64,000 bases of DNA from Magnolia sinica (lineage: Eukaryota; Streptophyta; Magnoliopsida; Magnoliales; Magnoliaceae), in assembly GCF_029962835.1 (NCBI RefSeq), contig NC_080577.1, positions 744,001 to 808,000 on the forward strand, read 5' to 3'. How positions within the stretch are numbered: position 1 is the stretch's first letter; each line of letters begins with the position of its first letter. Both the position numbers and the translations under genes were made by a program. Below are positions 718-56,289 of the stretch, in pieces. Below the pieces are notes generated by a model. It had not been told where the DNA came from and made no database searches. It saw only the letters and a program-made list of their open reading frames with translations.

Positions 718-783
718 AAAAACCTCATTCCTACGATTATATGGTTTAAGCCGTACACGTACGGAGCATTTCACGAGCCATTG

Positions 784-29580: not shown

Positions 29581-30024
29581 TGGCGCAATCTATAGGAACG
29601 ACAACAAAGTTGTCCACCAGTTCACTCTGTATCAAATCTACTTATCTGCATTTCCCTTATCCTATTATGGCTAAAGGAAAATAAAAGGCCTTGGCTGCCA
29701 TTACTAAGCCGACCCCAATGTCGGAAGAACAACCTGAGAGCCCTCAAGCACCATTGTTAAATCCTCAACCTGACCCCCGCCCCTGACAATCACACAAAGA
29801 TCCTGGAACACGCCGGGGGGGGGGGGGGGGGGCGTCACTTTAGAGAACCAAGTCCTGGTAATGTTGATCAGATTATGCGGATATTGGAGAGACAACATCC
29901 CTTCCCTAACCAAGGCATGGAATTAGGGGCAACAACTAAGCAATCTCAACCTCCATAAGCACCTCACGACTCATATGTGTTAAAGGATCAACCAACACGA
30001 AGTAGGTGTCTCCCCACATAAACG

Positions 30025-31135: not shown

Positions 31136-31351
31136 TAAGAAAGGGATAACCGACTTGCCAGTTAAGCAGAGCAACTCGACGACCATAATAATAATGAAGC
31201 AACATGTGAGATACGCACAATATTCAGAGGACCGTCCGGTGGTGGAGACTCAAACCGAGCACACCGAGCACATGCTTGAAGCATGAATAACAGCGAAAAA
31301 ATGCACTACATATACCTTATCGGCAGATCTGTAAAGGAATAAAGGTTAAGC

Positions 31352-33650
31352 TTGTATGGCCTAAGCTTCACAGAAGAAGATGCCCGAGGAATCCACCACC
31401 CACACGACAATGCCCTAGTAGTGACCATGATAGTGGCCAACCACAAGGTGCACCATATATTGGTGGACATCTGCAGGTCGGTTGACATCCTTTTCACTGC
31501 CACTTTTGATAAGATGGGGATTGGGAGATCCAGACTATGTCCCGTCCAAACTCCCCTGCTTGGCTTTGTCGGAGAGAAGGTAACCTCTAAAGGAAGCATT
31601 CTACTACTTGTAACTGTTGGCGAAGACATTAACTAGACCACAACCATGATCGACTTCCTCATAATAGATTATCCATCGGTCTACAACATGATCTCGGGCA
31701 GACTATCTTTAAATACCATGAGAGCTGTGGGATCCACTTATCGGAATGAAATTCCTAACCGAGCACGATGCTAGCCAAATCAGGGGCGATCACACACGAG
31801 GCTCGACAATGCTACTCAGCAACACTCTGAGCAAAAGTGCAACGACAACAAACAATGCACATCACCTCCCTAGATCCACGGGAGGAGTGTATTAAAAGGG
31901 GGTTGCTAGTGGAAGAGCTCGTGAAAATACCACTCTATGAAAGCGACTCGACTTGCACGGTCTAGGTCAGATCGCTACTTAGACCAAGGCATCAGGCTGA
32001 GATCGTCGACTTGTCAAGGCAACACGCTGACATCTTCATCTAGTCCTACACTGACGTCTTTGTCTAGCCTACCGAGACATGCCCGACATAGACCTGGAAG
32101 TGATGTTCCACTAATTGAACATCGACCTCGACCACAAGCCAATATGACAAAAGTGACGCATGTTCGACCCTAAAAGGTGTATGGCCATTGGTGAAGAGAT
32201 CGACAAACTCCTCGAGGCCGGGTTCATCAAGGAGATCTACTATCCCGACTAGTTGGCGAATATCCTATTAGTAAAAAAGACCAACGAAAAATGGCAAGTG
32301 TGTATCGACTACATCAACTTGAACAAAACATGCTTGAAAGACAACTTTCCATCTTGAGGATTGACCAACTGGTCGATAGCACTACCGTGTACGAGCTCCT
32401 TAGCTTTATAGAATTTAGGGTACAACCAGATCAGCATGTACAAGCATGGCAAACAGAAGACTACTTTCATCATAGACATAGGTATGTACTACCATTGGGT
32501 CATGATGTTTGGCCTGAAGAACACCAGAGCAACATACTAGAGATTGGAGAACAAAATGTCTGCCAAACAGATTCAAAAGACTATCGAGGTATATGTTGAT
32601 GACATGCTCGTCAAAACTGCCGAGGCCGCGGACCACATAACTGACTTGAGAAAGATGTTTGGTATCCTGATGAGGAACAAGATGAAGCTTAACTCGAACA
32701 AGTGTGTTTTTGACATCAGCTCGGGGAAGTTTTTAGGTTTCATGGTCCACCAGAGAGGGATCGAGGCAAACTCAAATAAGATTCGAGCTCTCACAGGGAT
32801 GAGCTCAATAAAGGAAATTTAGCGCCTCACAAGCATAATGAGAACACTGAATAGGTTCGTCTCTAGAGTTACAGACAGATACCTACCATTCTTCAAGTAA
32901 CTAAAAGGGAACATAAGGTTGACTTGAACAAGCGACTGCAAGCAAGCATTTCAACAGTTTAAGGAATATCTGGGATCGCCTTCGCTACTCTCCACAGCCG
33001 AATCGGGGGAGCAATTGTTGCTATATTTAATAGTCTCGACTATGACAATTAGCTCGACCTTAATACGTGAGGTCGAGAACAAATAACTCCCGGTATACTA
33101 CGTTAGCAAAGCTATGGTTCAGGCCGATATGTGATGTCCCGACATAGAGAAATTGATGCTGGTATTAATCATATCATTGCAGCATCTTCGACCATACTTT
33201 TAGGCTTACAAAAGTGAAAGAGTTGCTCAATGAGTTCGACCAGTGTGAAGTCATCATAGTTCCCAGGTTAGAAAATTCCAAAGCAGATGCTCTAGTAAAA
33301 CTAGCCATGACAGTTGATGATGACCTCCCCAAAATCGTACCGATCGAGTTCTTGCCTAAGCTTAGTATCAGCCAACCCAACTAGAAGAAGGTTCTCCCGA
33401 TAAACCAATCACCGAACTGGATGGATCCGATCATACACTACTTGTGGTAAGGCGAGTTGCCCGATGAAAAGTTCTAAGCCCACAAAATTAAGAACATATT
33501 AGCTTGGTATACCATATTGGTTGGCGTAACCTATAAGAGGGGTTTTTTGTTGACATACTTGAGATGCATGTGGCCGAATGAGGCCGAATATGTCATAAAA
33601 GAAATTCACGAAGACATCTGCAAGAATCATTCAGGCGGGGCTATATCTGC
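31352..33650 (+). pseudogene. pol (protease, RT, RNase H, partial integrase) of element A
   Basis: Protease-like segment: HHILVDICRSVDILF, the D(T/S)G site degraded, then VYNMISGRLSLN. The RT segment is in pieces: EEIDKLLEAGFIKEI, then a stop in place of Trp, KWQVCIDYINLN, and VYVDDMLVK with the catalytic DD intact (about 32590), followed by KMKLNSNKCVF and GKFLGFMV. RNase H remnants lie at about 33080-33330. The integrase H2C2 start EIHEDICKNHSGG is at about 33600. At least five stops interrupt it. Confidence 0.75.
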
Positions 33651-36600
33651 CAATAATGTTCTTTTAGATGAAGTTGGTGGTTTTCTGCTTGGTAATTTTA
33701 GCCAAGGGCTCGCTCGGCACACTTCATAAAATAGTTGACAGCGACGATGGCGAATCTGGTATGTCCCTTGCCCATTGGTAGGGGTCTTATGTATCGATGC
33801 CCCGCTGCGGAAAGGGTCAAGGGCTAGGAGGTTCAACTGCTCAGGCGATTGCCATAGTATCACAGTGAAATGTGGCACTTGTTGCATCTCTCTTGTATAC
33901 TGCTTTGTGTCTATGTGGATGGTTGGCCAGTAGTACCCCTATCGAATTACTTTGTGAGATAGAGCCCTCCCGCTAAAATGATCGTTGTAGATGCCTTCGT
34001 GAATTTCTTTTAGGATACATTCGACCTCATCCGATCGTAGCTAAGCATCTTAAGTATGGCAACAAAGAACCTCTCTTGCAGAGTATGTCTCTTAATATAA
34101 TATACCAAGCTAATCTTTTTTTTTTTGCGAGCTTTGTGCTTATCATCGGGTAACTCACCTTGCAGTAAGTAGTGTATGATTGGATCCATACAGCCTGGTT
34201 ATTGGTTTATCATGAGAGTTTCCTTTTGATCGGGTTGGTCGATACTGTGTTTGGGCAAGAACTCGATTGGTATGGTCCTAGTGAGGTCATCATTAACTTC
34301 TGTGGCCAGCTTTTCCAGGACATCCACCTTGGAATTTTCTAACCTGGGATCTAAGGTGACCTTACATTTATCGAACTCGCTGAGCAATTCTCACACTTTT
34401 TGTAGGTAGGCAATCATTATTTCTCATCTGGCTTGAAGATGCTGCAATGATATGATTAATACCAGCATCAATTTCTCTATGTCGGGACATCACATATCGG
34501 CCTGAACCATAGCTTTGCTAACGTAGTATACCGGGAGTTATTTGTTCTCGACCTCACGTATTAAGGTCGAGCTAATTGTCATAGTCGAGACTATTAAATA
34601 TAGCAACAATTGCTCCCCCGATTCGGCTGTGGAGAGTAGCGAAGGCGATCCCAGATATTCCTTAAACTGTTGAAATGCTTGCTTGCAGTCGCTTGTTCAA
34701 GTCAACCTTATGTTCCCTTTTAGTTACTTGAAGAATGGTAGGTATCTGTCTGTGCTCTAGATACAAACATGTTTAGAGTTGTTATCCTGCATGTGAGGTA
34801 TTGGATTTCTTTCATAGTTCTCGAGGAGTTCATCTCCACAAGGGCTAGGATCTTGTTGGGTTTGCCTCTATCCCTCTCTGATTGACTAGGAAGCCGAGGA
34901 ATTTACTCGAGCTGACACCAAAAGCGCACTTGTTCGAGTTCAATTTCATTTGGTACTTTCTCAGGATCATGAACATCTCCTTCAGGTCTACAACATGATA
35001 TGTTGCCTTTGTACTTTTAACAAGCATGTTGTCAATGTAGACTTTCATCGTGCTACCGATCTATTTGGCGAACATCTTATTGATGAGGCGCTGGTAAGTT
35101 GCTCCAGCATTCTTCAGTCCAATAGGCATTACTTTGTAGTAATAAAGTCCTTTATTGGTGACGAAAGTTATCTTCTACTTGTCGTGCTTATGCATGATGA
35201 TTTGATTGTATCATGAGTATGCATCTATAAAGCTAAGGAGCTCGTACACGGTAGTGCTATCGACCAGTTGGTCAATCCTCAAGATGGAAAGTTGTCTTTC
35301 AAGCATGTTTTGTTCAAGTTGATGTAGTCGATACACACTTGCCATTTTTCGTTGGTCTTTTTTACTAATAGGATATTCGCCAACTAGTCGGGATAGTAGA
35401 TCTCCTTGATGAACCCGGCCTCGAGGAGTTTGTCGATCTCTTCACCAATGGCCATACACCTTTTAGGGTCGAACATGCGTCACTTTTGTCATATTGGCTT
35501 GTGGTCGAGGTCGATGTTCAATTAGTGGAACATCACTTCCAGGTCTATGTCGGGCATGTCTCGGTAGGCTAGACAAAGACGTCAGTGTAGGACTAGATGA
35601 AGATGTCAGCGTGTTGCCTTGACAAGTCGACGATCTCAGCCTGATGCCTTGGTCTAAGTAGCGATCTGACCTAGACCGTGCAAGTCGAGTCGCTTTCATA
35701 GAGTGGTATTTTCACGAGCTCTTCCACTAGCAACCCCCTTTTAATACACTCCTCCCGTGGATCTAGGGAGGTGATGTGCATTGTTTGTTGTCGTTGCACT
35801 TTTGCTCAGAGTGTTGCTGAGTAGCATTGTCGAGCCTCGTGTGTGATCGCCCCTGATTTGGCTAGCATCGTGCTCGGTTAGGAATTTCATTCCGATAAGT
35901 GGATCCCACAGCTCTCATGGTATTTAAAGATAGTCTGCCCGAGATCATGTTGTAGACCGATGGATAATCTATTATGAGGAAGTCGATCACGGTCGTGGTC
36001 TGGTTAACGCCTTCACCAGCGGTGACAAGTAGTAGAATGCTTCCTTTAGAGGTTACCTTCTCTCCGACAAAGCCAAGCAGGGGAGTTTGGACAGGCCGTA
36101 GTCTCGATCTCCCTACCCCCATCTTATTAAAAGAAGCCGTGAACATGATATCTGCCGAGCTGGTGTCGACCAATATCCAGTGTACCTTGCGGTTGACCAT
36201 AGTCATGGTGACTACCAAGGCAACGTCGTGTGAGTGGTGGAGCCCTTGGGTATCTTACTCTATGAAGGTCAAGCTACATAAGCTCATCCTTTGTTCCTTT
36301 GTAGTCCTGCCGGTAAGGTAGACGTGATGTTCATTCTCGCTATTGCTCATGCTTCAAGTATGTTCTTAGTGTGCTCTGTTTGAGTCTCCACCACCGGACG
36401 GTCCTCTGAATATTGTGCGTATCTCACATATCATCTATTGTCAGCACCGGTATTTATCGGCCAATACTAGCCGTGTAAGACCCGTGTCCCAGTCCGTACC
36501 GTTTCGTTAGCTTCAGCGGTCATTCCGGTCAAATTCCGGCAACCTTCGCACCGTATTCGGTGTTTGCGCACGATCCTAAGCCAGGTCCCGCGCACCGACG

Positions 36601-38512
36601 TCGGCTTGGTCCGAAAGTTATATCATAGCGACCGCGTCGTCGCCGCGGTTCCAACGCCGTGACTTGCGCACCGAACCGATACCCAGGCAAGAAGATGCCG
36701 ATCAGCGTTTATTCCGAAGAAACACCGCGCGTTGCGGATTTCGAGGGAATCTCTACTATTAGTCTCATCAATCAACCATTAAAGCATCCCATATCCTAAG
36801 TACAACAACCCATCTCCACCTTTTTCAAAAGTCCACCATTCTTTCCACCTCACCACTCCTCTTTTCCAAATTTCAACAACAACCATACACCTTTTTACAA
36901 TTTTCAACCCAAACCATCCCCCATCACTCCATCACCCATCTCTTTCTCTCTCTCTCTCTCTCCCTTTACAACTATCTCTCTTATTCATTTTTTCAAAAAT
37001 CCAATCCAAGAGAGAGCACCATACGTATGAGTCCCCCATGGTGAGAAAACTTCCTTTGTGAGGTCCACCTTTCCCACCCCTTCATCTCTCATCTCAACCA
37101 TCCATTTTTCATCTTCCACCATCAAAGAGGAGCTCAAGGAACTAAGGAAGCCAAGGGAGCAAGAAGATCAAGTAGTGGGTGTCTTGATAGGGTAGATTTT
37201 GATATTTTAAGATGGGCCAAGTGAGGCCAACCGATCAATGGTTTGGATCTCGCTTTGGACCCTAAGATGTGGCCGATGGCCCACTTGGATCATCATGATC
37301 ATTCCATGATGGGGCCATTCCCCATGGACCCCATCATGATGTTTAATTCCTTGTATGCTTAAGGTCATTTAGACCATTTATTTTAGTGGAGAAAGGATCT
37401 CCACCATTGGATTTCAATTCCATGGACCCCACATGTAATGGGACCCACTTGATGTATGATTTAGTGCAAGGGAGGGCCCATAGTGCCGGGGTCCCTCCAT
37501 CACACGGTCTCACTCTCTATCTCTCTCCCTTTTATCTTATTTATTTATTTATTTATTTATTTTTATTTTTTTTGTAATACTGAGGTTATGCGGCCCACTT
37601 GAATGGACCCCACCATGAGGTAGGTATTTTATCCAAATCATTTAAAAGTGGGGCCCACTTTCTATGTGTAAGTATCCTGCCATCCATTCCCTGGTGGCCC
37701 ACCTAAGCAGGGCCCACCTCCTAAGTACATGCAAAGTCCAGCGTCCCTGGACGCTGGACGTTGCTGGAAGGGAACACAAATATATATATATATATATATT
37801 TTTAAACCTTGGAGTGGTCCACTCATGTAGGCCCCACCTTGATGTATGTATTAAATCCATGCCGTTCATTCCTTTCCCAAGATGATTTTAGGCGTTGAGC
37901 CCGAAGGTGGGATCCATCAGACCTTCAGGCGGGCCATACCATAGCAAATGGTAGTTTTCACCATTGAAACTTTTCCCGATTATTTATACATTGTAATATG
38001 TCCAATATTGGACTTGAACTGCTCGTGGTGAGCCATGGAAGAACACTGGACGGTGTGGATGGTTTGGAAGTGGACCCCACCTGCGAAAACCTCGGATGTA
38101 TTGAAATGCGATGCAGCAGGCGCTGCCTGCGCACCTGCGCTCGGGCGAGCGGGCGACCGGACAGCCTCTCACGGCTGTAGCCGTGGGCCCCACCTTGATG
38201 TTTGTACCCCATCTAAACCGCTCATCGGGTGGGCCACTCTCTGACGTGGGCCCACCCCAAAAATCAGCCAGATCCAAGACTCAGGTGGCCCACACCGTAA
38301 GAAACAGTGGGATTGGACCTCTACCTTTGAAAATGTTTTGGGGTCCACCGAAGTTCCAGATTAAGGTGAAATTTGTTATCACCCTTCATCTAGGTCTGCC
38401 TGACCTTATTAGTGGTTTGGATGGAATATAAACATAATGGTGGGCCCCACATGGAGCCCACAGTGAGGTAAGTGTTTTATCTCCACCGTCCGCCTGGACG
38501 GTGGAGCCCACT

Positions 38513-38640
38513 GTGTGCGTGTGTGTGTGTGTTGCTGTGTGCGTGTGTGTGTGTGTGTTGCCGTGTGCGTGTGTGTGTATATACATGTATATATATATAT
38601 ATATACACAATATTATATTATATATAATATAACATGTATA

Positions 38641-38703
<63 letters not shown>

Positions 38704-38712
38704 TATATTATA
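38513..38712. repeat. compound (GT)n-(AT)n microsatellite
   Basis: (GT)n with GTTGC/GTTGCC breaks at 38513-38578, then ATATAC and a long (AT)n to about 38702. The AT part can fold back. A shorter (AT)n lies at 37780-37800. Confidence 0.85.
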
Positions 38713-38756
38713 GATATTATATCATATTTAATATAATGATGAGGGGAGGCCCATCT

Positions 38757-39220
38757 CAATTATTTTGGCCCGTTATTGAGGTCTACTTTGATTACATGTA
38801 AGGCTCATGGGTCGAGGCCCATTTGATGTGCTTTGGGCTCATGGGTCGAGGCCCATTTGATGTGTTAGGGGCCCATGGGTTAAGGCCCATCAAGATGTAC
38901 TAAGACCTATAAGTTGAGGCCCATTTGATGTGCATATGGGGCCCAATTGGCGAGGCCCATTTGATACATATAAGGCCCATGAGAGTAGGCCCATTTGATA
39001 CATGTATGGGGCCCAATTGGCGAGACCCATTTGATACATACAAGGCCCATGTGAGCAGGCCCATTTAATGCATTCTAAGGCCCACGGGTTATAGCCCATT
39101 GTAATGAACATAAGGCCCATTGATGCGGCCCATTGATGTGGCCCACTTGATGAATATAAGGCCCATGAGATACGGCCCATTTGATGTATTGAAGGCCCAA
39201 TGAGATATACCTAAGGTTCA
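38757..39220. repeat. degenerate GGCCCATTTGAT tandem array inside the LTR-like block
   Basis: About a dozen units with AAGGCCCA, then GGCCCATTTGAT and TATAAGG spacing. On the minus strand they read as imperfect MYQMGL-WAP-type peptide repeats, about 45-48 bp per unit. The same array type occurs at 49760-50450 in the second block. Confidence 0.7.
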
Positions 39221-40874
39221 TTGCAATGTGCGGTCCCAATATGATTTATATATGATATTTATGACAGTCATGCCTTGGGAGCAATGGTGGTTTGACGCCC
39301 ACATTGCAAGTATAGTGTGGTTAAATGTCCACATTATGACTTTCCCTAGGGCCCATTGTTAGGCTCGCACACCTGTTATGTAGGCCATCTAGGCCCAATC
39401 CTGTTATGATTATCATCCATCCCATATAACATATTTAATTCCATGATTCATAATCATATGCATCATACGTATGCTTGATATGAGAAATGACTGATCATAG
39501 CATATGCCTTTGGGCAGATTGTTTAGGGGCTCCCGTACAGGGGGTGTTGCCCTACATGAGCGCACGATACGCGCAGGATTGCTGCATGACTGGATAGTGT
39601 GATTCATGCATTCGCATTGTGTGATATGGTTACTGTACGCCCTAGCGACATCAGGGCCGTAGCCTCCACAGACGTATCGTGGTTGGCAGGATTGGATACC
39701 GGAAATACTGTTCTACATGGGGTGCGATAGATATCCCTGGGTGAAAGTCCCTAAACCCTTATGGTACCAGGAGGTTGCTCCAACGTCTAGACCGAGTGGG
39801 TGCATGAGCGCTGGGTGCCGATTACCAGACGGTTGCGCTTTCCACTGTGTCGTGGTCGGTTGGAAGGGGGTGCGGCCTTACCCGCCCGAGAGTAGGGGCA
39901 ATGCTAGGCTGAGTTTGACCAGCTCGAGGAATGGGTCCGCTATTGACAAGCCTAGCCCGATATTGGCAGGCGGATAGTGAGGTCTTTTCCACTCACCTCA
40001 TTGCGCGCGATGGGGCGACAATCTGGCTTGGAGTGTACTAGACCCCGGTGATATTTCAGATTTGAGCCGTATTGACATGTGGACTTAGATGAGGATTTGT
40101 ATGCTTGACTTGCATTTTGCATTGCATGGCCTTGGTATGGCCGACACATTATTTGCACCGCATGGCCTTGGTACGGCTAATGGGATTCTTAGCATTCACC
40201 AGCATGTTCCGCATTACTCTGATACTGCATGACTACATTATCACCTTGAGCATACACTTTCACCACCCTCTAAGCTTTTTATAAGGTTATGCACGACCGT
40301 TGCGTGCAGGTGACGTTGGATCGCAGCAGCACGTGACGCGTGGGTGATCTTCTTTTGGAGTTTTGGTCTATCTTCATTGTATTTCCCTTATGCTCATTGT
40401 ACTTGGAAAGTTTTTGATTATAGTGGAAATGTGATGGAGTTTTTGGTTGTTGTTTGTGGGTTATGCCTTTGGTTATGCTTATTACGAATCAAACGAATGT
40501 TAAAAATCCTCCTTGTAGCATCCCAGGATCGGAACCTGGCGAATGGGCGCTGGGAGCCGAGAATGGGGTTCTACGGAGGCTGTCGGCGCCGGATTCGGCG
40601 ATCGGGAATTTTGTGAGCCCGGTCTCCGAGTTTGGGGCGTGACATAGATCCTTTCACTTTCTTGCATAGGGTAAGTGGGACCCGAGATGATCTTGGATTT
40701 CCTTCATCTCTGCCTCCAACAGAACTTCATTTTCTATCGTGACCTCAGGAGCTTTCCCACACCTTCTCTTTTCTAGAGTGTGGCGCAGATTGGACTCAGC
40801 AAGCTCGATCGTTCCCATCGTTTATGTGGGGAGACACCTACTTCGGGTTGGTTGATCCTTTAACACATATGAGT

Positions 40875-41378
40875 TGTGAGGACTTGGTCTCACTTGGATT
40901 GGGCTTGGGTTGAGTTGGGTTTGAAGTATAGGAACCTTGGGTTGGGCTAGGGTTGAGCGCTAACCTAGCCCATCCCACCAGACTTTCAGCTGTAATTCCA
41001 GGTACAGATGTGGCCCACCTGAGAAAGAGAGGACCAGGAATCTCAACACTCCAATTTTGAATATCCGCATCCCACTGTTGAGATTCCCACCAGCAATTCA
41101 TGGACGGTCAGAGATTAGAAATCACAGTCGAAAAATCCAGTTGATTGAACAATCCTAACCATTGAGTCGTGGACACGTTTTTTTGCTGAAATAAGAACGT
41201 TGGAAGTTTTTCATTTCATCCGTCCAATAAATGTCCACCAATCCAATAGTTTTATTAGAGAGAACGTGCAATTTAATGGATGCCAGGTCTACCACATTTG
41301 AGTGCCTGAGTATCAAGTGTCATTCATAGCCAGAGCATCATAAAAATCATGAAAAAGAAAAGGGAAGGAGTTGATTAC
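40875..41378. other. non-coding stretch between element B and CHY exon 3
   Basis: Begins with GGGTTGGG-type dispersed repeat (40890-40980). The remainder has no coding signature. The minus strand was read for the CHY/CTCHY continuation (CSVC, GEYFC) and none is present. Confidence 0.5.
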
Positions 41379-42161: not shown

Positions 42162-43393
42162 GAGAAATTTGCGACTGTACGACCCATTTATGGCCCATTT
42201 AGGAAACTACGCCTACCTCATTTTCCTTTGCGAGAATACGCCCCAGCTATACGGAAGGCTTGCCAAAGGTCGAAAATACCCTCCTTCAAGCGGATATGTG
42301 GTGCTCGAAGACGAGCGCTGACACTCCTCGAACTCCGAGTTGTACGAACGGTTCAAAAGATATCAGAGTTACATGGGCCCCACAGTTACGTATTTATTAT
42401 ATCCACAACGTTCATCCATAGTTCGAGATCATTTCGGAGCATTATCAAAAAAAAATCCTATCCAAAGATCAACTGGACCACACCACAAAGAGCAACGGGA
42501 AAATTGATTTTAACCGTTAAAAATTTTGTAGGGCCCACCATAACATTTATTTTCCATCCAATATATTCATAATGTCACAAAGACCTGGATGAAGAGGAAA
42601 AACAAATTTTGTAATGATCCAAAACTTCTGGGACCCCTAAAAGGGTTTCAATGGTAGACGTTCAATCTTCCACTGCCTTTTACAGTGTGGTCCACTTGAT
42701 AGCTAAATCTATCTTATTTTTCTTCCCAAGCGTTAGTACGAGTTCGCCAAATAGATGAACGGTTTGGATATAACACATACCTCACAAAAGGACCCACAAA
42801 GGCAGCGGGGATTACAACAGGGAAAAAAAAGAGCTGGTATCTTTGGCTACGGATTATAACCGTAGTGATAGCCGCAGCCAATGCTTTTTCAATTTGTCCT
42901 CTACTATACATCGAAGGTCTTTTGATACGTACTTCGATATATCGAATGTCTTTCGATTAATCGAAAAAGGTCCAAAACTGTCCAGCAACTTTGCATAAAA
43001 AATCCTGCAATTTTCGATTAATCGAAGTGTATTCGATATGTATCGAAGATATAGCTACAGATTATAGCTGTAGCCATAACTGTAGTCCGTAAAAGTCTAT
43101 GCAAATTTTTTTATTTTTTATTTTTTATTTTTTAGTTTTTATTTTTTACATGGAGAACTTTATTCTACCTACAATTTTCTCTAATACATATTTATATAAA
43201 TATGTATATATAAGCATATAAAAAAAAATTCTCTCTTTTTTTCATTTATTTCTCTATTCATTCAACAAGAATATCTTATAAACCAAAATTAGTTACTTGA
43301 TGTACCCTATATGATTTTGGGGTAGGAGAAGATACTTTAGCCAACTAACCTAGTTATTTTCTAAGATTCCATCAGGTCGATGGTCGAAAATCC
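42162..43393 (+). repeat. left outer terminal inverted repeat
   Basis: Pairs with 55081-56289 at high identity by eye, with a few small indels (for example about 14 bp near 42283 and a few bases near 56153). It contains an inverted member of the 'gggccca' dispersed family (about 42375-42800) and a stretch with TTCGATTAATCGAA and TTCGATATATCGAA palindromes (about 42930-43050). Confidence 0.85.
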
Positions 43394-43710
43394 ATTTCAT
43401 TCACTTTGCGGTCAATTTCAATCTGTTCGTAGTCATTTCCATGCATTTCACCGTCAATTCCCTCCACTTCACGGACAATTCCATGCATTTCACGGTCATC
43501 CCAAACTATTTCGTGTTGATTCACGGTCGTTTCGAGGCATTTCGCGGTCAATTCCCTTCACTTCACGGTCAGTTGCATGCATTTCGCGGTCAAATCGCTT
43601 CAAACCATGATCATTCCCATGCACTTCACGGTCAACCCAAACAATTCCGTGCTGATTCACGATCGTTTCGAGGCATTTCGCGGTCAATTCCCTTCACTAC
43701 ACGGTCAGTT
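43394..43710 (+). repeat. outer-left tandem array, plus orientation
   Basis: The first ~115 bp are degenerate 21-bp steps (TTGCGGTCAA, TTCGTAGTCA, TTCACCGTCA, TTCACGGACA). About one and a half 136-bp units follow. Orientation flips at about 43711. Confidence 0.8.
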
Positions 43711-45225
43711 TTGCATGGGAATGATCATGAATTGATGCGATTTGAGCGCGAAATGCATGCAAATGACCGTGAAGTGAAGGGAATTGACCGCGAAATGCCT
43801 CGAAACGACCGTGAATCAACACGAAATTGTTTGGGACGACCGTGAAATGCATGGGAATGATCATGGTTTGAAGCGATTTGAGCGCGAAATGCATGCAACT
43901 GACCGTGAAGTGAAGGGAATTGACCGCGAAATGCCTCGAAATGACCGTGAATCAACACGGAATTGTTTGGGACGACCGTGAAATGCATGGGAATGATCAT
44001 GGTTTGAAGTGATTTGACCGTAAAATGCATGCAAATGATCGTCAAGTGAAGGGAATTAACCGCGAAATGCCTCGAAACGACCGTGAATCAACACGGAATT
44101 GTTTGGGACGACCGTGAAATGCATGAGAATGATCATGGTTTGAAGCGAATTGACCGCAAAATGCATGCAACTGTCTGGTTATTGAAGGGAATTGACCGTG
44201 AAATGCCTCGAAACGACCGTGAATCAACACGGAATTGTTTGGGATGACCGCGAAATGCATGGAAATGATCATGGTTTGAAGCGATTTGACCGCGAAATGC
44301 ATGCAAATGACCGTGAAGTGAAGGGAATTGACCGTGAAATGCCTCGAAACGACCGTGAATCAACACGGAATTGTTTGGGATGACCGCGAAATGCATGGAA
44401 ATGATCATGGTTTGAAGCGATTTGACCGTGAAATGCATGCAAATGACCGTGAAGTGAAGGGAATTGACCGCGAAATGCCTCGAAACGACCGTGAATCAAC
44501 ACGGAAATGTTTGGGATGACCACGAAAAGCATATGAATGATCATGGTTTGAAGCGAATTGACTGCGAAATGCATGCAACTGACCGTGGAGTGAAGGGAAT
44601 TGACCGCGAAATGCCTCGAAACGACCGTGAATCAACACGGAATTGTTTGGAATGACCGTGAAATGCATGGGAATGATCATGGTTTGAAGCGAATTGACCG
44701 CGAAATGCATGCAAATGACCGTGAAGTGAAGGGAATTGACCGCGAAATGCCTCGAAACGACCGTGAATCAACACGGAATTGTTTGGGATGACTGCGAAAT
44801 GCATAGGAATGATCATGGTTTGAAGCGATTTGACCGCGAAATGCATGCAAATGACCGTGGAGTGAAGGGAATTGACCGCGAAATGCCTCGAAACGACCGT
44901 GAATCAACACGGAATTGTTTGGGATGACCGTGAAATGCATGGGAATGATCATGGTTTGAAGCGAATTGATCGCGAAATGCATGCAACTGACCATGGAGTG
45001 AAGGGAATTGATCGCGAAATGCCTCGAAACGACCGTGAATCAACATGAAATTGTTTGGTATGACCGTGAAGTGCATGGGAATGATCATGGTTTGAAGCGA
45101 TTTGAGCGCGAAATGCATGCAAATGACCGTGAAGTGAGGGGAATTGACCGCGAAATGCCTCGAAACGACCGTGAATCAACACGGAATTGTTTAGGATGAC
45201 CGTGAAATGCATGGGAATGATCATG
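43711..45225 (-). repeat. inner-left 136-bp tandem array, minus orientation
   Basis: About 11 units of 136 bp, each with five (TTC)RCGGTCA boxes on the minus strand. Units differ by scattered substitutions, often R (A/G) in the box or A/T in the box flank. Overlapping ~100-codon frames on both strands arise because 136 is 1 modulo 3 and stops are rare in the unit; they are not genes. Confidence 0.9.
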
Positions 45226-46010
45226 ATTTCCTTCTGTGAGCACTTCGATCAATAGAGATTCTTTACCAGATGATGATGGACAATCATTCTCAATTGACCC
45301 ATACAACAACATACCCTCGATTCCATCACCATCTCCTCCCCCTTCTTCTTTTAAATCGAGCTTCTCGATTAGCGAATGGTGGCCCATCTCCTCCACTTGA
45401 AACCCTTCCCCAGTCAATAAGATTCTGGTTGCTGGACCATTGAGGTACATTTTCGATATATCGATATTTACTCGATATATACTTACTTCGATATATCGAA
45501 ATATCGGAGATATAATCGATAATTGCACTAAAAAAGCAGTTCGACGCTGGACATTTTCTGACAATTTCCGATATATCGAAATCTAGTCGATATATCGATA
45601 CCTCGATATATCGACATCTACTCGATTATATCGATAATACAATTTAAAAAGTATTTTGTCGCTGGACAGTGTGTGACTATTTTCGATCAATCGAATAATA
45701 GTCGATATATCGGTCGGTTGTAAGGATGACTTACTAATATTATATCGACTAGATTTCGATATAATCGACAACTTACTCTACCATTAATCGATTAGGTTTC
45801 GATTATATCGAAGAGTTTCGATATATCGTGTTCTATTCGATATATCGAAGTGTAATTTTTCTGTTTTTTTTCTAATGTGTTTTTTTATTTTTTATATATA
45901 TTTTTTTATTTTACTTTTTTAGGTTATCTTGTTAGTGCACACCCATGTCGCTACACACTCCATGTTTTCCAAGTTGTGTTCATAGTGTGCTTCTTCTAGT
46001 CTCTTAAGTT
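45226..46010. other. unique centre of the foldback element
   Basis: Two parts. 45226-45450 has coding-like composition on the minus strand: an open frame with ATRILLTGEGFQVEEMGHH and a Glu/Gly-rich stretch ending near TEG; I do not recognise the protein. 45450-45860 is dense in TCGATATATCGA-type palindromes with two CGCTGGACA phrases. A short AT-rich stretch follows. This resembles a captured host fragment next to an LTR-like palindrome array; that is inference. Confidence 0.55.
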
Positions 46011-46878
46011 GCATGGTCATTTGCATGCATTTCGCGGTCAAACTACTTCAAACCATGATCATTCCTATGCATTTCGCGGTCATCCCAAACAATTCCGTGT
46101 TGATTCACGGTCGTTTCGAGGCATTTCGCGGTCAATACCCTTCACTTCACGGTCATTTGCATGCATTTCGCGGTCAATTCGCTTCAAACCATGATCATTT
46201 CCATGCATTTCGCGGTCATCCCAAACAATTCCGTGTTGATTCACGGTTGTTTTGAGGCATTTCGCGGTCAATACCCTTCACTTCATGGTCATTTGCATGC
46301 ATTTCGCGGTCAAATCGCTTCAAACCATGATCATTCCCATGCATTTCGCGGTCATTCCAAACAATTCCGTGTTGATTCACGGTCGTTTCGAGGCATTTCG
46401 CGGTCAATTCCCTTCACTTCACGGTCATTTGCATGCATTTCACGGTCAATTCGCTTCAAACCATGATCATTCCCATGCATTTCACGGTCATTCTAAACAA
46501 TTCCGTGTTGATTCACGGTCGTTTCGAGGCATTTCGCGGTCAATTCCCTTCACTCCACGGTCATTTGCATGCATTTCGCGGTCAATTCGCTTCAAACCAT
46601 GATCATTCCTATGCTTTTCGCGGTCATCCCAAACAATTCCGTGTTGATTCACGGTCGTTTCGAGGCATTTCGCGGTCAATTCCCTTCACTCCACCGTCAT
46701 TTGCATGCATTTCGCGGTCAATTCGCTTCAAACCATGATCATTCCCATGCATTTCACGGTCATTCCAAACAATTCCGTGTTGATTCACGGTCGTTTCGAG
46801 GCATTTCGCGGTCAATTCCCTTCACTCCACGGTCAGTTGCATGCATTTCGCGGTCAATTCGCTTCAAACCTGCCCTCT
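46011..46878 (+). repeat. inner-right 136-bp array, plus orientation, proximal part
   Basis: About 6 units in the orientation opposite to 43711-45225. It ends in GCTTCAAACC and TGCCCTCT at the insertion of the LTR block. Confidence 0.9.
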
Positions 46879-49096
46879 TGTAAGACCCGTAAACTAGCCT
46901 GTACCATTCCATAAACTTCTACGGTTCCCTCTATACGAGTTTCGGCGACCCGGGACTAATAGAAAGCATTGTCGCATGCTCTTGAGTCACATCCTGTAAA
47001 CCCGAGCCGACTCAAAATGAGACCTATGTCATTTTGACCGCGCTGTCGCCGCGGTTCCGACGATGCGTCTTGTGCGTCAATACGATGCTCAGATTATAAG
47101 ATCCGGCCCGTGCATTATCTAGACCGTTGATCGCTTGATTGTGGGACCCACCTATCCCTATTGTTGTACTTCCCTAGAAACATTAATTACTATGATGTCA
47201 CCCTAGGGGTGACATCACCCTACCATACCACCTTACCTTCCCTTTTCCCCATAAGTCAAACTCATTAATTCCCATTACCTCACCATCCCTCTCTCCCATC
47301 ACTCCCTTACATCATTTCTCTCTTTCAATTCTCTCCATTCCAAGCAATCCCTCCATGGAGCAACCCACGTCCATGGCTCCCATGAGAGAGCTAGTGTGGC
47401 CCACCTCCCTATCTCCCATCTCCACCATCCAATGATCATCTCCACCATTGAAATTGTTTCTTTGGGGCTCTATCATGCATTGGCGGAAGAAGGAAGAAGA
47501 GATCTCGAGGTGGGTGCTCCTTTCTTTCCTCTCATTTTTTTGTGATGTGTGGCCCACTTGGATGAATCCCATCTTGAGGTATGTTTTATCCCAACCGTAC
47601 AAGTCATGTGGACCCTACTTTATAGTGATGGAAACACACAAATATCAAGTTGATTTAAATATGGTGGGCCATGTTCATGTGGGACCCACCTTGGTGACAC
47701 GTGGACCACCTACACGTAGGACCCACTATGATGATTGTGTTATACCTATGCTGTCCAACGTCCCAGGGACGCTGGACAGGGAGTGGCTAAAGTGGTGTGC
47801 GTGCACTGAAATGGTGGTGTACTAATAAGCAAAGGAGAGGAAGAAGAATAGTATTTGGAGGTGGGCTGCTCATGCAGGCCCCACCTTGATGTATGTATAA
47901 AATCCACGCCACCCATTTCACTTCTCATCTCATTTTAGGCGTTGAGCCAAAAGATGAGGCTAATCTGACAATCAAGCAGGCCATACTGTAGGAAATGGTA
48001 ATTTTTACCGTTGAAAACTCACCCAACGATTCTACATGCTGAAAAATACTCAATATTGGTCTTGTTTGGTCAATATTGAGCCGTGAGATGCAATGGTCAG
48101 GATAGATTTTCCTGATGAGGGCCCCACCTAAGAAATTCCCTAGAAAAATTGGATTTAGAGAAAAAAAAAACACAGAATCATAAGGCAGCAACGCTGCTGC
48201 TGTCAGAAGTGGGCGGGCGGACGGCCTGGCTGGACCTCACGGCTCCAGCCGTGGGCCCCACGTGATGCATTTTGAACATCGAAACCGTGCATTTGATGGG
48301 TCCCCATGGACCAGCCGTCCATCCCAAAAATTAGCTGTATACGGAACTCAGGTGGGCCATACCATCTAAAATCATGTGATAATATGCCTAAAAATATAAA
48401 ATCATCTGGTGGGGCCTCCTTGAGTTTTGGATGTGATTGAAACTTGGTTTGGACCCCTAATTATATGGGACACCTATAATGGACGGAGTGGATCTGATTA
48501 ATGTGGGCCCCATCTAGTATAAAAAAAGAAAAAATTTAATAATAGCAATCAATATGCTTTGACGTCCAGAAGGGTCTGGACGTCCATCGTGAAATAGGGA
48601 GGGCCCCCTTGGCCTCAATTGTGGATCTACCATGATGTATGTTCTACATCCATGCCGTTCATTTAATAGGTCCCCTTTTATGATGCGTTGGTTCCAAAAA
48701 TTAGTCATAAAAAGTTCTCGGATGGCCCACACCATCACCTTTCATGCAGTGGTGTACCAAGTCACATGGAATCAACTGCTGGGGTCCACATGCAGCTTGG
48801 ATCCACCTGAAACTCGGTTTGGGCCCTTAAATTGGTGGGACACACACAATGAGTGGGTTGGATTTGTGAACTACATCACGGTGGACCCCCAGGACCATAT
48901 AACCATACCAAAAAAAAAATATATTTGGTGGACAATAAATATTACAGTGGGCCAAAGGCCCACGTGACCTTATAAACTGGTTGTATGGTAAGTAAACATT
49001 GCAGTGGGCCCCTGGCCCATGCGACTTTATCAACAGATTGGACGCAAGTAAACATTTCAGTGGGTCCCATGATCATGTGACCCTATCACAAGGTTA

Positions 49097-49097
49097 A

Positions 49098-49166
<69 letters not shown>
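49097..49166. repeat. (AAT)n-(AAAT)n microsatellite
   Basis: About 14 AAT units followed by about 7 AAAT units. Confidence 0.9.
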
Positions 49167-49167
<1 letters not shown>

Positions 49168-49759
49168 TGCAGTATCCATATCTCATTAATGTCTGCAAAA
49201 AAAATAAACATTTTGGTGGGCCCCAGGTCTATAAGACCTTATCAACAGGTTGGATGCAAATAGATGTTATAGTGGCCCAAGTTGGATGATAAATAAATAT
49301 TACAGTGGGCCCTAGGCCCATGTGACCCTATGACTAGTTTGGATGGAAGATAAACATCATGTTGGCCTCATTTTGGATGGACAGTATGTTGGGCCCTAGG
49401 TGGGGTGGAAAATAAACATTTTGGTGGGTCTTACTTAAGACTTATTTATGTATGTGTTGTGTCCACAACTGTGGACCTCCATCATGGAACATGTGACTTA
49501 TCTATTCCTTCCATCCCTATGGGACCCACTATGATGCATGTGTTTCATCCAACCGTCCAACCATTTTTGGAAAATGATCCTTTTTTCTTAGGTTTGGGAC
49601 GAAAATAAGTCAGATTTACTTATCAAGTGGACCATAGTGCACGGTGAGGATTGAATGACTATCTTTGAAATCTTGAGACCCTATGATTAGATTAGATGGG
49701 AAATAAATGTTATGGCGGACCTTGAAAATTTTAGTAGTGGAAATCATCATCACCACTTA

Positions 49760-50450
49760 TATTGAGTGTGGCCCATTTAACATACATGGGGCCCATTGAT
49801 GTGGCCAATTTGATGTATGTATGACCATGTTATGAGGCCTACTTTGATGTATGTTGTGGCCCATTTGTCAGGCCCACTTTGATGTATCTTTATCCACGCC
49901 ATCCAGGGCAGGCACCCCATTATGATATATATATCAGGGCCCATGGGTCGAGGCCCATTAGTGCTGCTATTTGATACAACCCACTTGATGTGTACGAGGC
50001 CCATTAGGGCGGCCCATTGATGCAAGGCCTATTGTGACATGTATTAGGCCCATGACGCGTGACCCATTTGATGTGTATAAGACCCATGGGTAGGGCCCAC
50101 ATATTATGTATTTGAAGCCCATGAGCAGAGCCCACCTGAGGTTTATATATGGGCCCCATTAATGTGGCCCACTTGTATTCGAGGCCCATGGGTTGCGGCC
50201 CATGGGTCGTGGCCCATTGTGATATATACTCGGCCCATACGTCGTGGCCCATTGAGATGTGTTTCCGACCCATTTAGTGAGGCCATTGTGAAATATTCCT
50301 ACTCTTGTGATGAGGCCCATTGAGATGTATTTCTGGCTCATTGATGCGGCCCACTTGTTGAATTGAGGCCCATTGGTGTGGCGTGCGGCCCAATGTATCG
50401 ACCCACCGTGATGTGTAGGTCCACGTGCTGTATGTGTAAGGCTCACCTGT
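49760..50450. repeat. GGCCCAT tandem array in the second LTR-like block
   Basis: Many units with GGCCCA(C/T)TTGATGT and AGGCCCATG words, spaced 25-50 bp, continuing more loosely at 50940-51200. Minus-strand frames read imperfect WA-MGP/HNGP peptide repeats. Homologous in type to 38757-39220. Around 50770-50930 a separate cluster of GTCGAT/GTCGAG words separates the two stretches. Confidence 0.7.
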
Positions 50451-53049
50451 GATGACTATTTGAGGCCTACTTGTTGGATATTTGGGCCCATCTTATGTTT
50501 GACTCTATGTGGACCACTCCTTGGGAGCAATGTTGGTTAAATGTCCACATTGCTAGGCAGTGATGGTTGGATGTCCACATTGTGACCCTTCCTTAAGCCT
50601 TATCAGGCCCATTCTCATCATTCTCTTAGTGGGTTAACCCAAATAAGTGGGCCCCATTTACCATGGACGGATGGCTCCATGCTACCAGATTTGATATAAC
50701 CATGGTCGAGGGTTGATCTTTATATTATGATTGATCAGATGTTCATCTATGGACCCAATCTTGTCTATGTGACCGGTCGTCGGTGTTGATTATCGATGCT
50801 GATTGTCGGTGCTAATTATCGATGTAGATTATCGTTGTCGATTTGTCGAGGTCGATTGTATTGGTCGGTTCCGATTGTCGAGGCCGATTCTGAGTATCGA
50901 ATTCGATTGCTAAGGCCGATTGTCGAGACTTACATGATGTATATGTGACCCGTAGTTGAGGGCCATTGTGATATGTATTAAGCCTATGATGCATGGTCCA
51001 TTTAATGAATTCAAGACCCATGTGTAGGGCCCACATGTCCTGTGTTTGAGGCCTATGGGCAAGGCCCATTGTGATGTATTCATGGCCCATGGGCAAGGCC
51101 CATTGTGATATGTATTAGACCCATGAGCAGGGTCCACCTGTTGTGTATATGTGGCCTTTGAGTAAGACCCATTGTGTTGTATATTAGGCCCTTGTGTGAG
51201 GCCGTGGGCCCATTATATGTTTGACTCTATGGAGGCCATTCCTTGGGGGCAATGTTGGTTAAGTGTCCACATGGTCGAGGTCGATTATCGATGCTGGTTG
51301 TGGATACCAGTTATGAGTATGTGACAGCATAGCATCATGATACATGCCCATACGCATCATCTGCATGTTTGTTATGAGAGGTGGTTGATCATTGCATATG
51401 TCATTGAGCATGTTGTTATGAGACTCCCTGATAGGTGGAGGTTATCTCACATGAGCACACGGTATGTGCAGGACTGATGCATGACTGGATTGTATGACTC
51501 ATGCATCTCGCATTATGATTACTTTACGCCCTAGCGACATCAGGGTCGTAGCCTCCACAGGCATATCGTGGATGGCCAAATAGGACACCGAAAATGTTTG
51601 GTCCTAGCATACGGGCGCCATAGATGTCCCTGGGTGAAAATCCCTAAACCTCCGTGGCCAGGAGACGCCCCAACGTCGAGACCGAGTGGATACATGAGCG
51701 CCCGAGTGCCAAATACCAGGAGGCCGCGTCTCCCACTGTGTCGTGGTCGGTTGGGAGGGGGTGTGGCCTTACTCGCCCGAGGGTAGGGGGCAATACTAGG
51801 CTAAGTTTGACCAGCTCGTGAATGGGTCCGCTATCGACGTGCTTGGGATAGGTATTGGCGACTATTGGCAAGGCGGATAGTGAGGTTTCTTATGCTCACT
51901 TGGTCGGTGGAAGAGTGGCAGTGCCATTTGGAGTGTACTAAACCCCGGTGATGATTCCAGAGATGAACTGTACCGATATGTGGATTTAGTGAGCAGGAGT
52001 TGCATACTCATTCATGCATTCATTCATTCACTATCTACTCGGGTTGGTGGTAAGCAACTAGTTGATACGTGTGCCTTCGCAATGGCCAGGATTTCGGTTG
52101 GGGCGCGCGACTAACCTGAGATCAGGAGTCTACCACATTGAGTCTGACTATCCAAATTTAGGTATGGGACTGGTTTGGATAGAAGTCTCTTGTGATGGAC
52201 CCCATAGCCTGCGATACTACGTACTACCATCTCGACTTCACACTCCAGTATGGTCATTCCATCCGCACCGCATATTGCATTACATCCGCGGCATATGACA
52301 TCTTGGGTTACTGTGTTTCTACATTTATATGGTTTAGATATGGCTGACGTATTTGTGAACACATAAGAAATGTATATTGTATTGCATCCTCTACATTTGA
52401 TATTTGGCTCTTTATGACTCCTCGTTTGCGTAGCTGTTATATATTGCGTATATATCGATTGGCTCATGGACTTGTTCATATTTCCGCTTACTCTGTTATC
52501 GTATGATCTATGATCTTGTGAGTATTTCTGTTTACTCAGATAATTCATGATCTTGCTAGTATCTTTGCTTATTCCGATATTGTACGGTTTATGGATTACC
52601 AGTACTTCCAGTTTGTATGATAATGGCATTGTATCGAATACTTGGCACTTACCTTGTGCACACACTTACACCACCCTCTAAGTTTTCTATAAGCTTATGC
52701 ACGATAGATGCGTGCAGGTGTTTTTAGGTTGCAGCAGCGTTGAGCTTGGAGCGTGCAGTTGTATTCTGGAGCTTTGATTTCGATATATGTATTTCCCTTT
52801 CAGCATTGTATTCAAATGATTATATTAGTGGATATGTGATGATGATGTTGCCTTTATGATTTGGGTATACTTGTGGTTATGCTTATTACGAGATAAATGT
52901 ACATTGGCAAAAAAAAATCCTCCTTGTAGGATCCCAGGATCGGAATCGGCGTGTGAACGCTAAGATCCGAGAATGGGGTACTACGAGGTTGTTACAGATT
53001 CGGCAATCGGGATTTCTATGAATCCGATTTACGGATTTGGGGCGTGACA

Positions 53050-54795
53050 ATTCCTATGCTTTTCGCGGTCATCCCAAACAATTCCGTGTTGATTCACGGT
53101 CGTTTGAGGCATTTCGCATCAATTCCCTTCACTTCACGGTCATTTGCATGCATTTCGCGGTCAAATCGCTTTAAACCATGATCATTCCCATGCATTTCAC
53201 GGTCATTCCAAACAATTCCGTGTTGATTCACGGTCGTTTTGAGGCATTTCGCGGTCAATTCCCTTCACTTCACGGTCAGTTGCATGCATTTCGTAGTCAA
53301 ATCGCTTCAAACCATGATCATTCCCATGCATTTCGCGGTCATCCCAAACAATTCCGTGTTGATTCACGGTCGTTTCGAGGCATTTCGCGGTCAATTTCCT
53401 TCACTCCACGGTCAGTTGCATGCATTTCGCGGTCAATTCGCTTCAAACCATGATCATTCCTATGCATTTCGCGGTCATCCCAAACAATTCCGTGTTGATT
53501 CACGGTCGTTTCGAGGCATTTCGCGGTCAATTCGCTTCACTCCACGGTCAATTGCATGCATTTCGCGGTCAATTCACTTCAAACCATGATCATTCCCATG
53601 CATTTCACTGTCATCCCAAACAATTCCGTGTTGATTCACGGTCGTTTCGAGGCATTTCGCGGTCAATTCGCTTCACTTCACGGTCAGTTGCATGCATTTC
53701 GCGGTCAATTCGCTTCAAACCATGATCATTCTCATGCACTTCACGGTCGTCCCAAACAATTCCGTGTTGATTCACGGTCGTTTCGAGGCATTTCGCGGTC
53801 AATTCGCTTCACTTCACGGTCATTTGCATGCATTTCGCGGTCAATTCGCTTCAAACCATGATCATTCCCATGCATTTCACGGTCATTCCAAACAATTCCG
53901 TGTTGATTCACGGTCGTTTCGAGGCATTTCGCGGTCAATTCCCTTCACCTCATGGTCATTTTGCATTCGCAATCAAATCGCTTCAAACCATGATCATTCC
54001 CATGCATTTCGCGGTCATCCCAAACAATTCCGTGTTGATTCACGGTCGTTTCGAGGCATTTCACGGTCAATTCCCTTCACTGCACGGTCAGTTGCATGCA
54101 TTTCGCGGTCAAATCGCTTCAAACCATGATCATTCCCATGCACTTCACGGTCGTCCCAAACAATTCCGTGTTGATTCACGGTCGTTTCGAGGCATTTCAC
54201 AGTCAATTCGCTTCACTTCACGGTCATTTGCATGCATTTCGCGGTCAATTCGCTTCAAACCATGATCATTCCCATGCATTTCACGGTCGTCCCAAACAAT
54301 TCCGTGTTGATTCACAGTCATTTCGCGGTCAATTCCCTTCACTTGACGATCATTTGCATGCATTTTACGGTCAAATCACTTCAAACCATGATCATTCCCA
54401 TGCATTTCACGGTCGTCCCAAACAATTTCGTGTTGATTCACGGTCATTTCGAGGCATTTCGCAGTCAATTCCCTTCACTTCACGGCCCTTTGGATGCATT
54501 TCGCGCTCAAATCGCTTTAAACCATGATCATTCCCATGCATTTCACTCGTCCCAAACAATTTCGTGTTGATTCACGGTCGTTTGAGGCATTTCGCGGTCA
54601 ATTCCCTTCACTTCACGGTCCAATTGCATGCATTTCGCGCTCAAATCACATCAATACATGATCATTCCCATGCACTTCACGGTCATCCCAAACAATTCCG
54701 TGTTGATTCACGGTAGTTTGAGGCATTTCATGGTCAATTCGCTTCACTTCACGGTCATTTGCATGCATTTTGTGGTCAATTCGCTTCAAACCATG
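53050..54795 (+). repeat. inner-right 136-bp array, plus orientation, distal part
   Basis: About 12-13 units. Units near 53940 and 54300-54360 have internal deletions of part of the 21-bp ladder. Orientation flips at about 54796, where GCTTCAAACCATGAT meets ATGCCTCGAAACGACCG. Confidence 0.9.
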
Positions 54796-55080
54796 ATATG
54801 CCTCGAAACGACCGTGAATCAACACGGAATTGTTTGGGATGACCGTGAAGTGCATGGGAATGATCATGGTTTGAAGCGATTTGAGCGCGAAATGCATGCA
54901 AATGACCGTGAAGTGAAGGGAATTGACCGCGAAATGCCTCGAAACGACCGTGAATCAACACGAAATAGTTTGGGATGACCGTGAAATGCATGGAATTGTC
55001 CGTGAAGTGGAGGGAATTGACGGTGAAATGCATGGAAATGACCACGAACTGATTGAAATTGACCGCAAAGTGAATGAAAT
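54796..55080 (-). repeat. outer-right tandem array, minus orientation
   Basis: Inverted counterpart of 43394-43710, including the degenerate 21-bp steps next to the outer repeat. Confidence 0.85.
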
Positions 55081-56289
55081 GGATTTTCGACCATCGACCT
55101 GATGGAATCTTGGAAAATAACTAGGTTAGTTGGCTAAAGTATCTTCTCCTACCCCAAAATCATATAGGGTACATCAAGTAACTAATTTTGGTTTATAAGA
55201 TATTCTTGTTGAATGAATAGAGAAATAAATGAAAAAAAGAGAGAATTTTTTTTTTATATGCTTATATATACATATTTATATAAATATGTATTAGAGAAAA
55301 TTGTAGGTAGAATAAAGTTCTCCATGTAAAAAATAAAAACTAAAAAATAAAAAATAAAAAAATAAAAAAATTTGCATAATCTGTAGCTATATCTTCGATA
55401 CATATCGAATACACTTCGATTAATCGAAAATTGCAGGATTTTTTATGCAAAGTTGCTGGACAGTTTTGGACCTTTTCCGATTAATCGAAAGACATTCGAT
55501 ATATCGAAGTACATATCGAAAGACCTTCGATGTATAGTAGAGGACATATTGAAAAAGCATTGGCTGCGGTTATCGCTACGGTTATAATCCGTAGCCAAAG
55601 ATACCAGCTCTTTTTTTTCCCTGTTGTAATCCCCACCGCCTTTGTGGGTCCTTTTATGAGGTATGTGTTATATCCAAACCGTCCATCTATTTGGCGAACT
55701 CGTACTAACGCTTGGGAAGAAAAATAAGATAGATTTAGCTATCAAGTGGACCACACTGTAAAAGGCAGTGGAAGATTGAACGTCTACCATTGAAACCCTT
55801 TTAGGGGTCCCAGAAGTTTTGGATCATTACAAAATTTGTTTTTCCTCTTCATCCAGGTCTCCGTGACATTATGAATATATTGGATGGAAAATAAATGTTA
55901 TGGTGGGCCCTACAAAATTTTTAACGGTTAAAATCAATTTTGCCGTTGCTATTTGTGGCGTGGCCCAGTTGATCTTTGGATAGGATTTTTTTTTTTTGAT
56001 AATGCTCCGAAATGATCTCGAACTATGGATGAACGTTGTGGATATAATAAATACGTAACTGTGGGGCCATGTAATTCTGATATCTTTTGAACCGTTCGTA
56101 CAACTCGGCGTTCGAGGAGTCTCAGCGCTCGTCTTCGAGCACCACATACCCGCTTGAAGGAACAAGCAGGTGCATTTTCGACCTTTGGCAAGCCTTCCGT
56201 ACAGCTGGGGCGTATTCTCGCTGTGGAAAATGAGGTGGGCGTAGTTTCCTAAATGGGCCATAAATGGGTCGTACAGTCGCAAATTTCTC
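55081..56289 (-). repeat. right outer terminal inverted repeat
   Basis: Inverted counterpart of 42162-43393. It ends GTACAGTCGCAAATTTCTC. Confidence 0.85.

Follow-up and report, generated by a model that had tools for sequence, protein, structure and literature searches.

A 64,000-nucleotide stretch of the Magnolia sinica genome (contig NC_080577.1, positions 744,001 to 808,000 of the forward strand; this whole stretch is called the window below, and its coordinates are used unless a locus is named) contains at 42162-56289 an inverted-repeat element that is likely a non-autonomous foldback-type Mutator-like DNA transposon, in which one founder switch in the orientation of a tandem array was carried to both arms before the element multiplied. 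Both ends read GAGAAATTTGCG going inward. From each end, about two units of the array run one way and are followed by a reversed array (11 units in the left arm, 19 in the right) that continues to the centre.

The array unit is 136 bp long and made up of subrepeats of about 21 bp; its orientation is called plus where TTCACGGTCA lies on the + strand. The left outer arm, a terminal inverted repeat (42162-43392, + strand) defined by arm-to-arm alignment, is followed by a left outer array of about 2.3 units in plus orientation (43393-43711), a left inner array of 11.2 units in minus orientation (43712-45229) and a centre of 0.78 kb that lies outside the arrays (45230-46011). On the right, the inner array is in plus orientation, with a centre-proximal part of 6.3 units (46012-46870) and an outer part of 12.9 units (53050-54797) separated by a 6.2-kb insertion (46871-53049) that is not part of the element, and it is followed by a right outer array of about 2.0 units in minus orientation (54798-55081) and the 1.2-kb right outer arm, a terminal inverted repeat on the - strand (55082-56289). 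The left switch (43696-43760) is an altered version of the junction common in the family, and the right switch (54797-54798) is without the junction palindrome. The outer inverted repeat aligns 42162-43679 with 56289-54795 in long blocks that are 94-100% identical, a few gaps aside. These coordinates agree with the outer repeats of about 1.2 kb, the array lengths and the switch points proposed in an earlier sequence-only reading of the window, and the unique 0.8-kb centre of that reading stands as a non-array block. Outside the arrays of the element, the window gave no further match to the 136-bp unit (E 1e-3). CATGCA motifs, which we take to be of the B3-type RY class, were frequent in the array; this was given no weight, because any motif becomes frequent inside a repeat unit.

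The sequence-only reading had the right plus array split by a long terminal repeat (LTR) element. The insertion does have LTR-like ends (TGTAAG...GTGACA, judged by eye), no clean target duplication was seen at its borders, and the one frame of it that was tested gave no convincing family, so that a 6.2-kb insertion is established and its LTR identity is that of a candidate. This type of gap is absent from the arrays of two other copies, L031 and L032. The window has pieces related to the insertion at 37.8-40.6 kb, and the outer array of an arm at another locus, L024, contains sequence similar to it. No transposase or other gene was seen in the window element, and a Pfam search with the longest minus-strand frame of the centre gave no match.

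The genome (1,838,573,281 bases) was searched with an array-free outer-arm query and with the centre, the best 40 candidates being scored in each DNA search. The outer-arm query gave 9,923 first-look candidates, and the 41 matches listed after scoring the best 40 included 39 places beyond the window at 95-97% identity plus one partial match of 121 bp. Thirty arms were taken with 1.5-kb flanks, the window's left arm included, representing 28 elements, two of them by both arms. An outer array followed by a reversed inner array was present in 29 of the 30; in the remaining arm (L024), the outer array runs for about 170 bp and is then cut off by sequence that resembles the window at 36.5, 37.8, 47.4 and 47.9 kb (74-83%). 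The centre query gave 583 first-look candidates, the best 40 of which (the window's included) scored at least 95%, plus one short weak match, and the arrays face the centre alike in 19 of 20 centre loci (again including the window's) regardless of the direction of the centre. Given these two counts, members of the family are usually built as a two-level palindrome. The genome copies bear out the foldback element with mirrored switch points that had been proposed from the window, and they have boundaries like those of an element. Inner arrays range from about 10 to 25 units among four whole copies. One compound copy (C3; L033 1-9800 with L037) has two centres, three switch modules and a truncated right end, and its third module, which links the two centres, carries the same junction in reverse with at most two mismatches. 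This copy probably represents recombination between copies through their arrays rather than a separate family.

The switch itself has a recognisable junction. In 31 aligned arms the commonest form is CGGTCAGTTGCATGCAACTGACCG, a perfect 24-bp palindrome, followed by CTGATCATGAATTGATGCG. When tested in 32 arms, with three duplicate rows of L031/L032 excluded, the palindrome was found within one mismatch in 12 and within three mismatches in 13. Its middle is TGCATGCA, which occurs 11 times in the 11.2-unit left inner array of the window, and the best match to the whole palindrome in the pure array of the window has five mismatches. Genome-wide, the palindrome occurs at 83 places with at most two mismatches, and a control sequence at none; forward and reverse counts are equal because the palindrome is identical on both strands. 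Among the 50 of these places that were listed, 24 are 1,508-1,596 bp inward of an element end from the set of 121 described below, the expected coincidence being about 0.00003 per place, and the other 26 have no such end, the set of ends being partial. In addition, a variant motif lies close to the switch in 21 of 32 arms, and beyond 1.9 kb from the end it occurs 5 times versus 212 for the usual motif, with four rows spanning the whole element.

Evidence of mobility comes from the ends. Perfect 10-bp direct repeats flank two copies, L031 (C6) and L032 (C7), as TTGTTTAATC twice and AATGGCAAAT twice, and in a third copy (C1) the 10-bp flanking repeats match at 9 of 10 positions (GTTTTTATAC/GTTATTATAC), giving 10-bp target-site duplications in three of the five copies followed end to end. 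The 52-bp end was found at 241 places in the genome with at most three mismatches, and its control at none. Taking the 100 of these that were listed together with 21 from the outer-arm search yielded 121 distinct ends, among which 35 pairs of neighbours were less than 20 kb apart; 32 of these faced inward, spanning 4.4 to 18.2 kb, two faced outward and one was in tandem. Among the ends listed, then, copies with a single arm and no element boundaries, which the sequence-only reading had named as the contrary case, were not the pattern encountered. The outer arms differ by a mean of 3.1% in 32 rows (496 pairs, range 1.5-5.0%), a spread that is understated because the rows were picked for similarity to the window. 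Within four copies, the two sister arms diverge by 2.3, 1.9, 4.2 and 2.6%; the two arms of L031 are mutual nearest neighbours, and the sister arms of the other copies mostly are not. As judged from these sequence differences, the divergence fits a burst from a founder with nearly identical arms.

A relative of the element carries genes. In L058+L069, the one gene-bearing copy analysed for array order, the end is followed by about 630 bp of other sequence, an array, genes encoding DUF1985 (E 1.4e-13) and a Ulp1-type C48 peptidase (E 2.9e-19), a short array piece, an opposite array, part of the centre, further array and, on the other strand, a frame for a Mutator-like element (MULE) transposase (PF10551, E 9.6e-14). 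It has in common with the foldback element the terminal 121 bp (92%), the 136-bp arrays and part of the centre, and the boundary between its opposite array and the centre falls at the same base as in L031. A 748-bp end of the gene-bearing type was examined in 40 copies. The protease frame lay 4.1-6.6 kb downstream on the same strand in 29, and on the other strand within 15 kb in none (comparison with 66 of 150 protease rows; 1,120 first-look candidates). A convergent transposase match lay within 35 kb in 20 of the 40, and another arrangement was found in none (67 of 150 transposase rows; 1,499 first-look candidates). From these 20 copies we infer that the gene-bearing end and the transposase frame belong to one element. 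At one locus (L009 2733-2752), a foldback copy and a gene-bearing relative lie end to end with 20 bp between them, a spacer that may consist of two 10-bp target duplications.

The Mutator-like superfamily is known for target-site duplications of 8-11 bp, and most plant MULEs have long terminal inverted repeats. The element has long terminal inverted repeats, 10-bp duplications in three of its five copies followed to both ends and, at the locus of the relative that shares its terminal 121 bp, a PF10551 transposase frame. It also has the long inverted arms with tandem subrepeats, and the arm-to-arm complementarity, of foldback elements. The arm subrepeats of such elements are typically, not necessarily, in a single orientation, a usual trait that is absent here, since the switch is found in nearly every arm. 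Foldback elements with modular or subrepeated arms include FARE in Arabidopsis, SoFT in tomato, Tnr8 in rice and FB in Drosophila, and to our knowledge an in-arm reversal is not a feature of any of them. In KAONASHI (KI) type MULEs the protease gene is reportedly reversed relative to the transposase. The gene-bearing relative has this trait, its ULP protease and transposase running in opposite directions (29 of 40 and 20 of 40 ends, respectively). KI of Arabidopsis is described in the available text as a non-TIR MULE, that is, one without terminal inverted repeats (TIRs), with a ULP protease domain in reverse orientation (PMC2528002); the likeness lies in the gene-bearing relative, and the window element differs in its long arms and in having no gene that could be found. 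A MULE with tandem TIRs was considered for the element and rejected, since each end of the five copies followed end to end has a single outer arm.

Among relatives described elsewhere, Tetris of Drosophila virilis is a foldback transposon with no apparent coding capacity and 8-10-bp duplications, and its authors suggest membership of the Mutator superfamily (PMC4079207). It differs from the magnolia element in its animal host and its unit of about 220 bp as opposed to 136 bp, and in the accessible part of that account a reversal within the arm is not described. Tm1 of root-knot nematodes is a Mutator/foldback family with composite arms containing an internally repeated motif, mostly 9-bp duplications and a putative transposase in some members; its motif is about 14 bp, and the text available likewise describes no in-arm reversal (PMC3169594). 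In Galileo of Drosophila, arms lengthen via tandem repeats and by copying of inner sequence to the other arm, and ectopic recombination is invoked, but this element belongs to the P superfamily and its tandem repeats are described as direct (PMC3573991). Plant MULEs with multiple long TIRs have doubled end structures and have been amplified, as here; according to the sections available, whole terminal repeats are mostly in tandem in those elements, whereas in the magnolia element it is the tandem array that reverses (PMC3310237). As far as these partial sources extend, tandem repeats in foldback arms, the Mutator assignment of such elements and copying between arms are already known. The new and unusual aspect is the family-wide reversal of orientation, a hairpin, inside each arm. 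The sequence-only reading had called the arrangement unfamiliar, and no description of an in-arm reversal was found in the portions of the open-licence literature that were available.

The layout probably goes back to a single founder, from which it spread through the genome by copying. In a founder arm, copying would have turned back at the TGCATGCA palindrome within the 136-bp unit, leaving the perfect 24-bp palindrome, and a second jump back into the array would have given the rest of the junction. Both arms would then have acquired the switch, by inverted duplication or by arm-to-arm conversion, and the element would have multiplied, with later copies altering or losing the junction palindrome and changing the number of units. 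The window copy would later have gained the 6.2-kb insertion and lost or exchanged its target duplication, for which array-mediated exchange between copies could be one explanation. Movement would have been in trans, by a Mutator-type transposase supplied by relatives with the same end. The sequence-only reading held that the outer flips arose once, before the arms were duplicated; a single origin is supported by the common 24-bp junction and the variant motif found in most arms, and a flip preceding arm duplication cannot be separated from a flip in one arm followed by gene conversion onto the other.

Several observations weigh against this account. The turn-back step, put together from the letters of one junction, has an alternative in a deletion at the same TGCATGCA, which could leave the same letters, and 20 of the 32 arms are more than one mismatch away from the palindrome, having lost or changed bases in it or close by. 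By overall score, the best match of the first post-switch unit in the window is its counterpart in the other arm, the third unit ranks its counterpart second and the second unit shows no such pairing, and this mixed result argues weakly for a common origin. Scoring the best 40 candidates means that window-like copies are over-represented, and at one centre locus (L053) the left side starts with about 0.8 kb free of array, beyond which the array has the opposite sign. Transposition itself would be deduced from the copies and their borders. Target duplications, which the sequence-only reading suggested looking for in genome copies, flank three other whole copies, and no matching duplication was found at the ends of the window copy nor seen in the compound copy with the truncated right end. 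A search for a partner copy, using the window's left flank beside the right end, gave 12 matches versus 17 for the control at two or fewer mismatches, and in none of the 10 loci examined was there an element end at the match, two of them (L065 and L067) containing, away from the match, inner portions of the outer arm at 73-84%. As for the proposed source of transposase, the gene-bearing relative has no more than 121 bp in common with the 1.2-kb outer arm, no inverted end was found within 13 kb at its far side, and a search by the expected duplication gave 18 matches versus 10 for the control, none of them nearby.

Founder inheritance has to be weighed against other origins of the switch. There is a real chance, clearly short of even, that the flip is the scar of a deletion, in which a gene block between opposite arrays was lost at the repeated TGCATGCA and the arrays were left face to face; the foldback arms would then derive, by inverted copying, from a gene-bearing element with an internal deletion, and the identity of the element would be the same. 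The order seen in L058 (end, array, DUF1985/Ulp1 genes, short array piece, opposite array, centre) is what such a deletion would start from, and the shared base at which its opposite array and that of L031 meet the centre also speaks for it, but the variant motif that 21 of 32 arms have close to the switch is absent from the start of the L058 opposite array, the L058 outer sequence past 121 bp has no comparable match to the foldback outer arm, and these comparisons involve a single gene-bearing copy. Separate origins of the switch for each arm, or for each copy, are very improbable. The exact switch letters do differ between the arms of one copy (the window, L032), and the second and third post-switch units have no clear pairing between the window arms, but the 24-bp junction and adjoining variant are common genome-wide, and later trimming of the palindrome would account for much of the variation. 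Palindromic arrays are hard to assemble, so an artefact may also be thought of; we regard it as scarcely credible, since the same layout occurs at many loci and the assembly was built, according to the text available, from nanopore, Illumina and Hi-C data with a contig N50 of about 45 Mb (PMC10999834).

A further account would have the in-arm hairpin kept by selection, because it provides transposase sites in two orientations near each end, folds when single-stranded and so aids cutting or copying, or yields a small-RNA silencing transcript, and we think this unlikely. In its favor, 29 of 30 arms keep the switch, although the length of the inner arrays ranges between about 10 and 25 units in the four whole copies, and the predicted folds are very stable. 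As DNA, the left switch region of the window has a computed energy of -304.9 kcal/mol, compared with -99 for shuffled sequences (z -28, 20 shuffles), a difference well outside chance, and as RNA the switch region of L011 reaches -456.5 kcal/mol, compared with -189 (z -41, 20 shuffles). These folds cover single arms, and arm-to-arm pairing rests on sequence complementarity; by computation, a hairpin could form inside an arm and would be very stable. Against selection, a young burst from one founder would keep the layout unaided, and most arms (20 of 32) have moved more than one mismatch from the exact junction palindrome. The arrays may, by analogy, hold transposase binding sites, as proposed for repeats of this kind in the available parts of two accounts (PMC3573991, PMC4079207).

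The window contains other features apart from the element. A second nested inverted repeat at 29962-40881 has 200-bp ends that are 99% identical (29962-30161 and 40881-40682) and, within it, 2.4-kb arms that are 85% identical (31204-33648 and 36429-33957). At its outer ends, no exactly duplicated stretch of at least 6 bp was found. Pieces of an S-domain receptor-like kinase gene lie at 523-6855, including a frame at 2055-3767 with B_lectin (E 2.4e-18) and S_locus_glycop (E 1.5e-5) domains and a frame at 4999-5568 that is kinase-like as judged by eye. A 193-bp tandem duplication, 93% identical, is located at 13475-13863.

Foldback arm repeats have so far been described, in the sources as available, as growing in one direction. 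Here the founder-arm hairpin, later present in both arms and in many copies, has a recognisable junction, and by counting its occurrences one can trace the origin of a palindrome, its passage from arm to arm and its decay within a plant genome. The compound copy with two centres, joined via its third switch module, suggests that such modules recombine. As a speculation that we hold doubtful, each arm may be a working palindrome, a hairpin module of about 310 bp lying about 1.25 kb inside the end, that drove the burst of the family; sites in two orientations or a foldable strand might, with similarly low probability, raise transposition or allow exchange of arrays in either direction. The presence of a likely transposase-bearing relative in the same genome makes the role of arm repeats in transposition testable.

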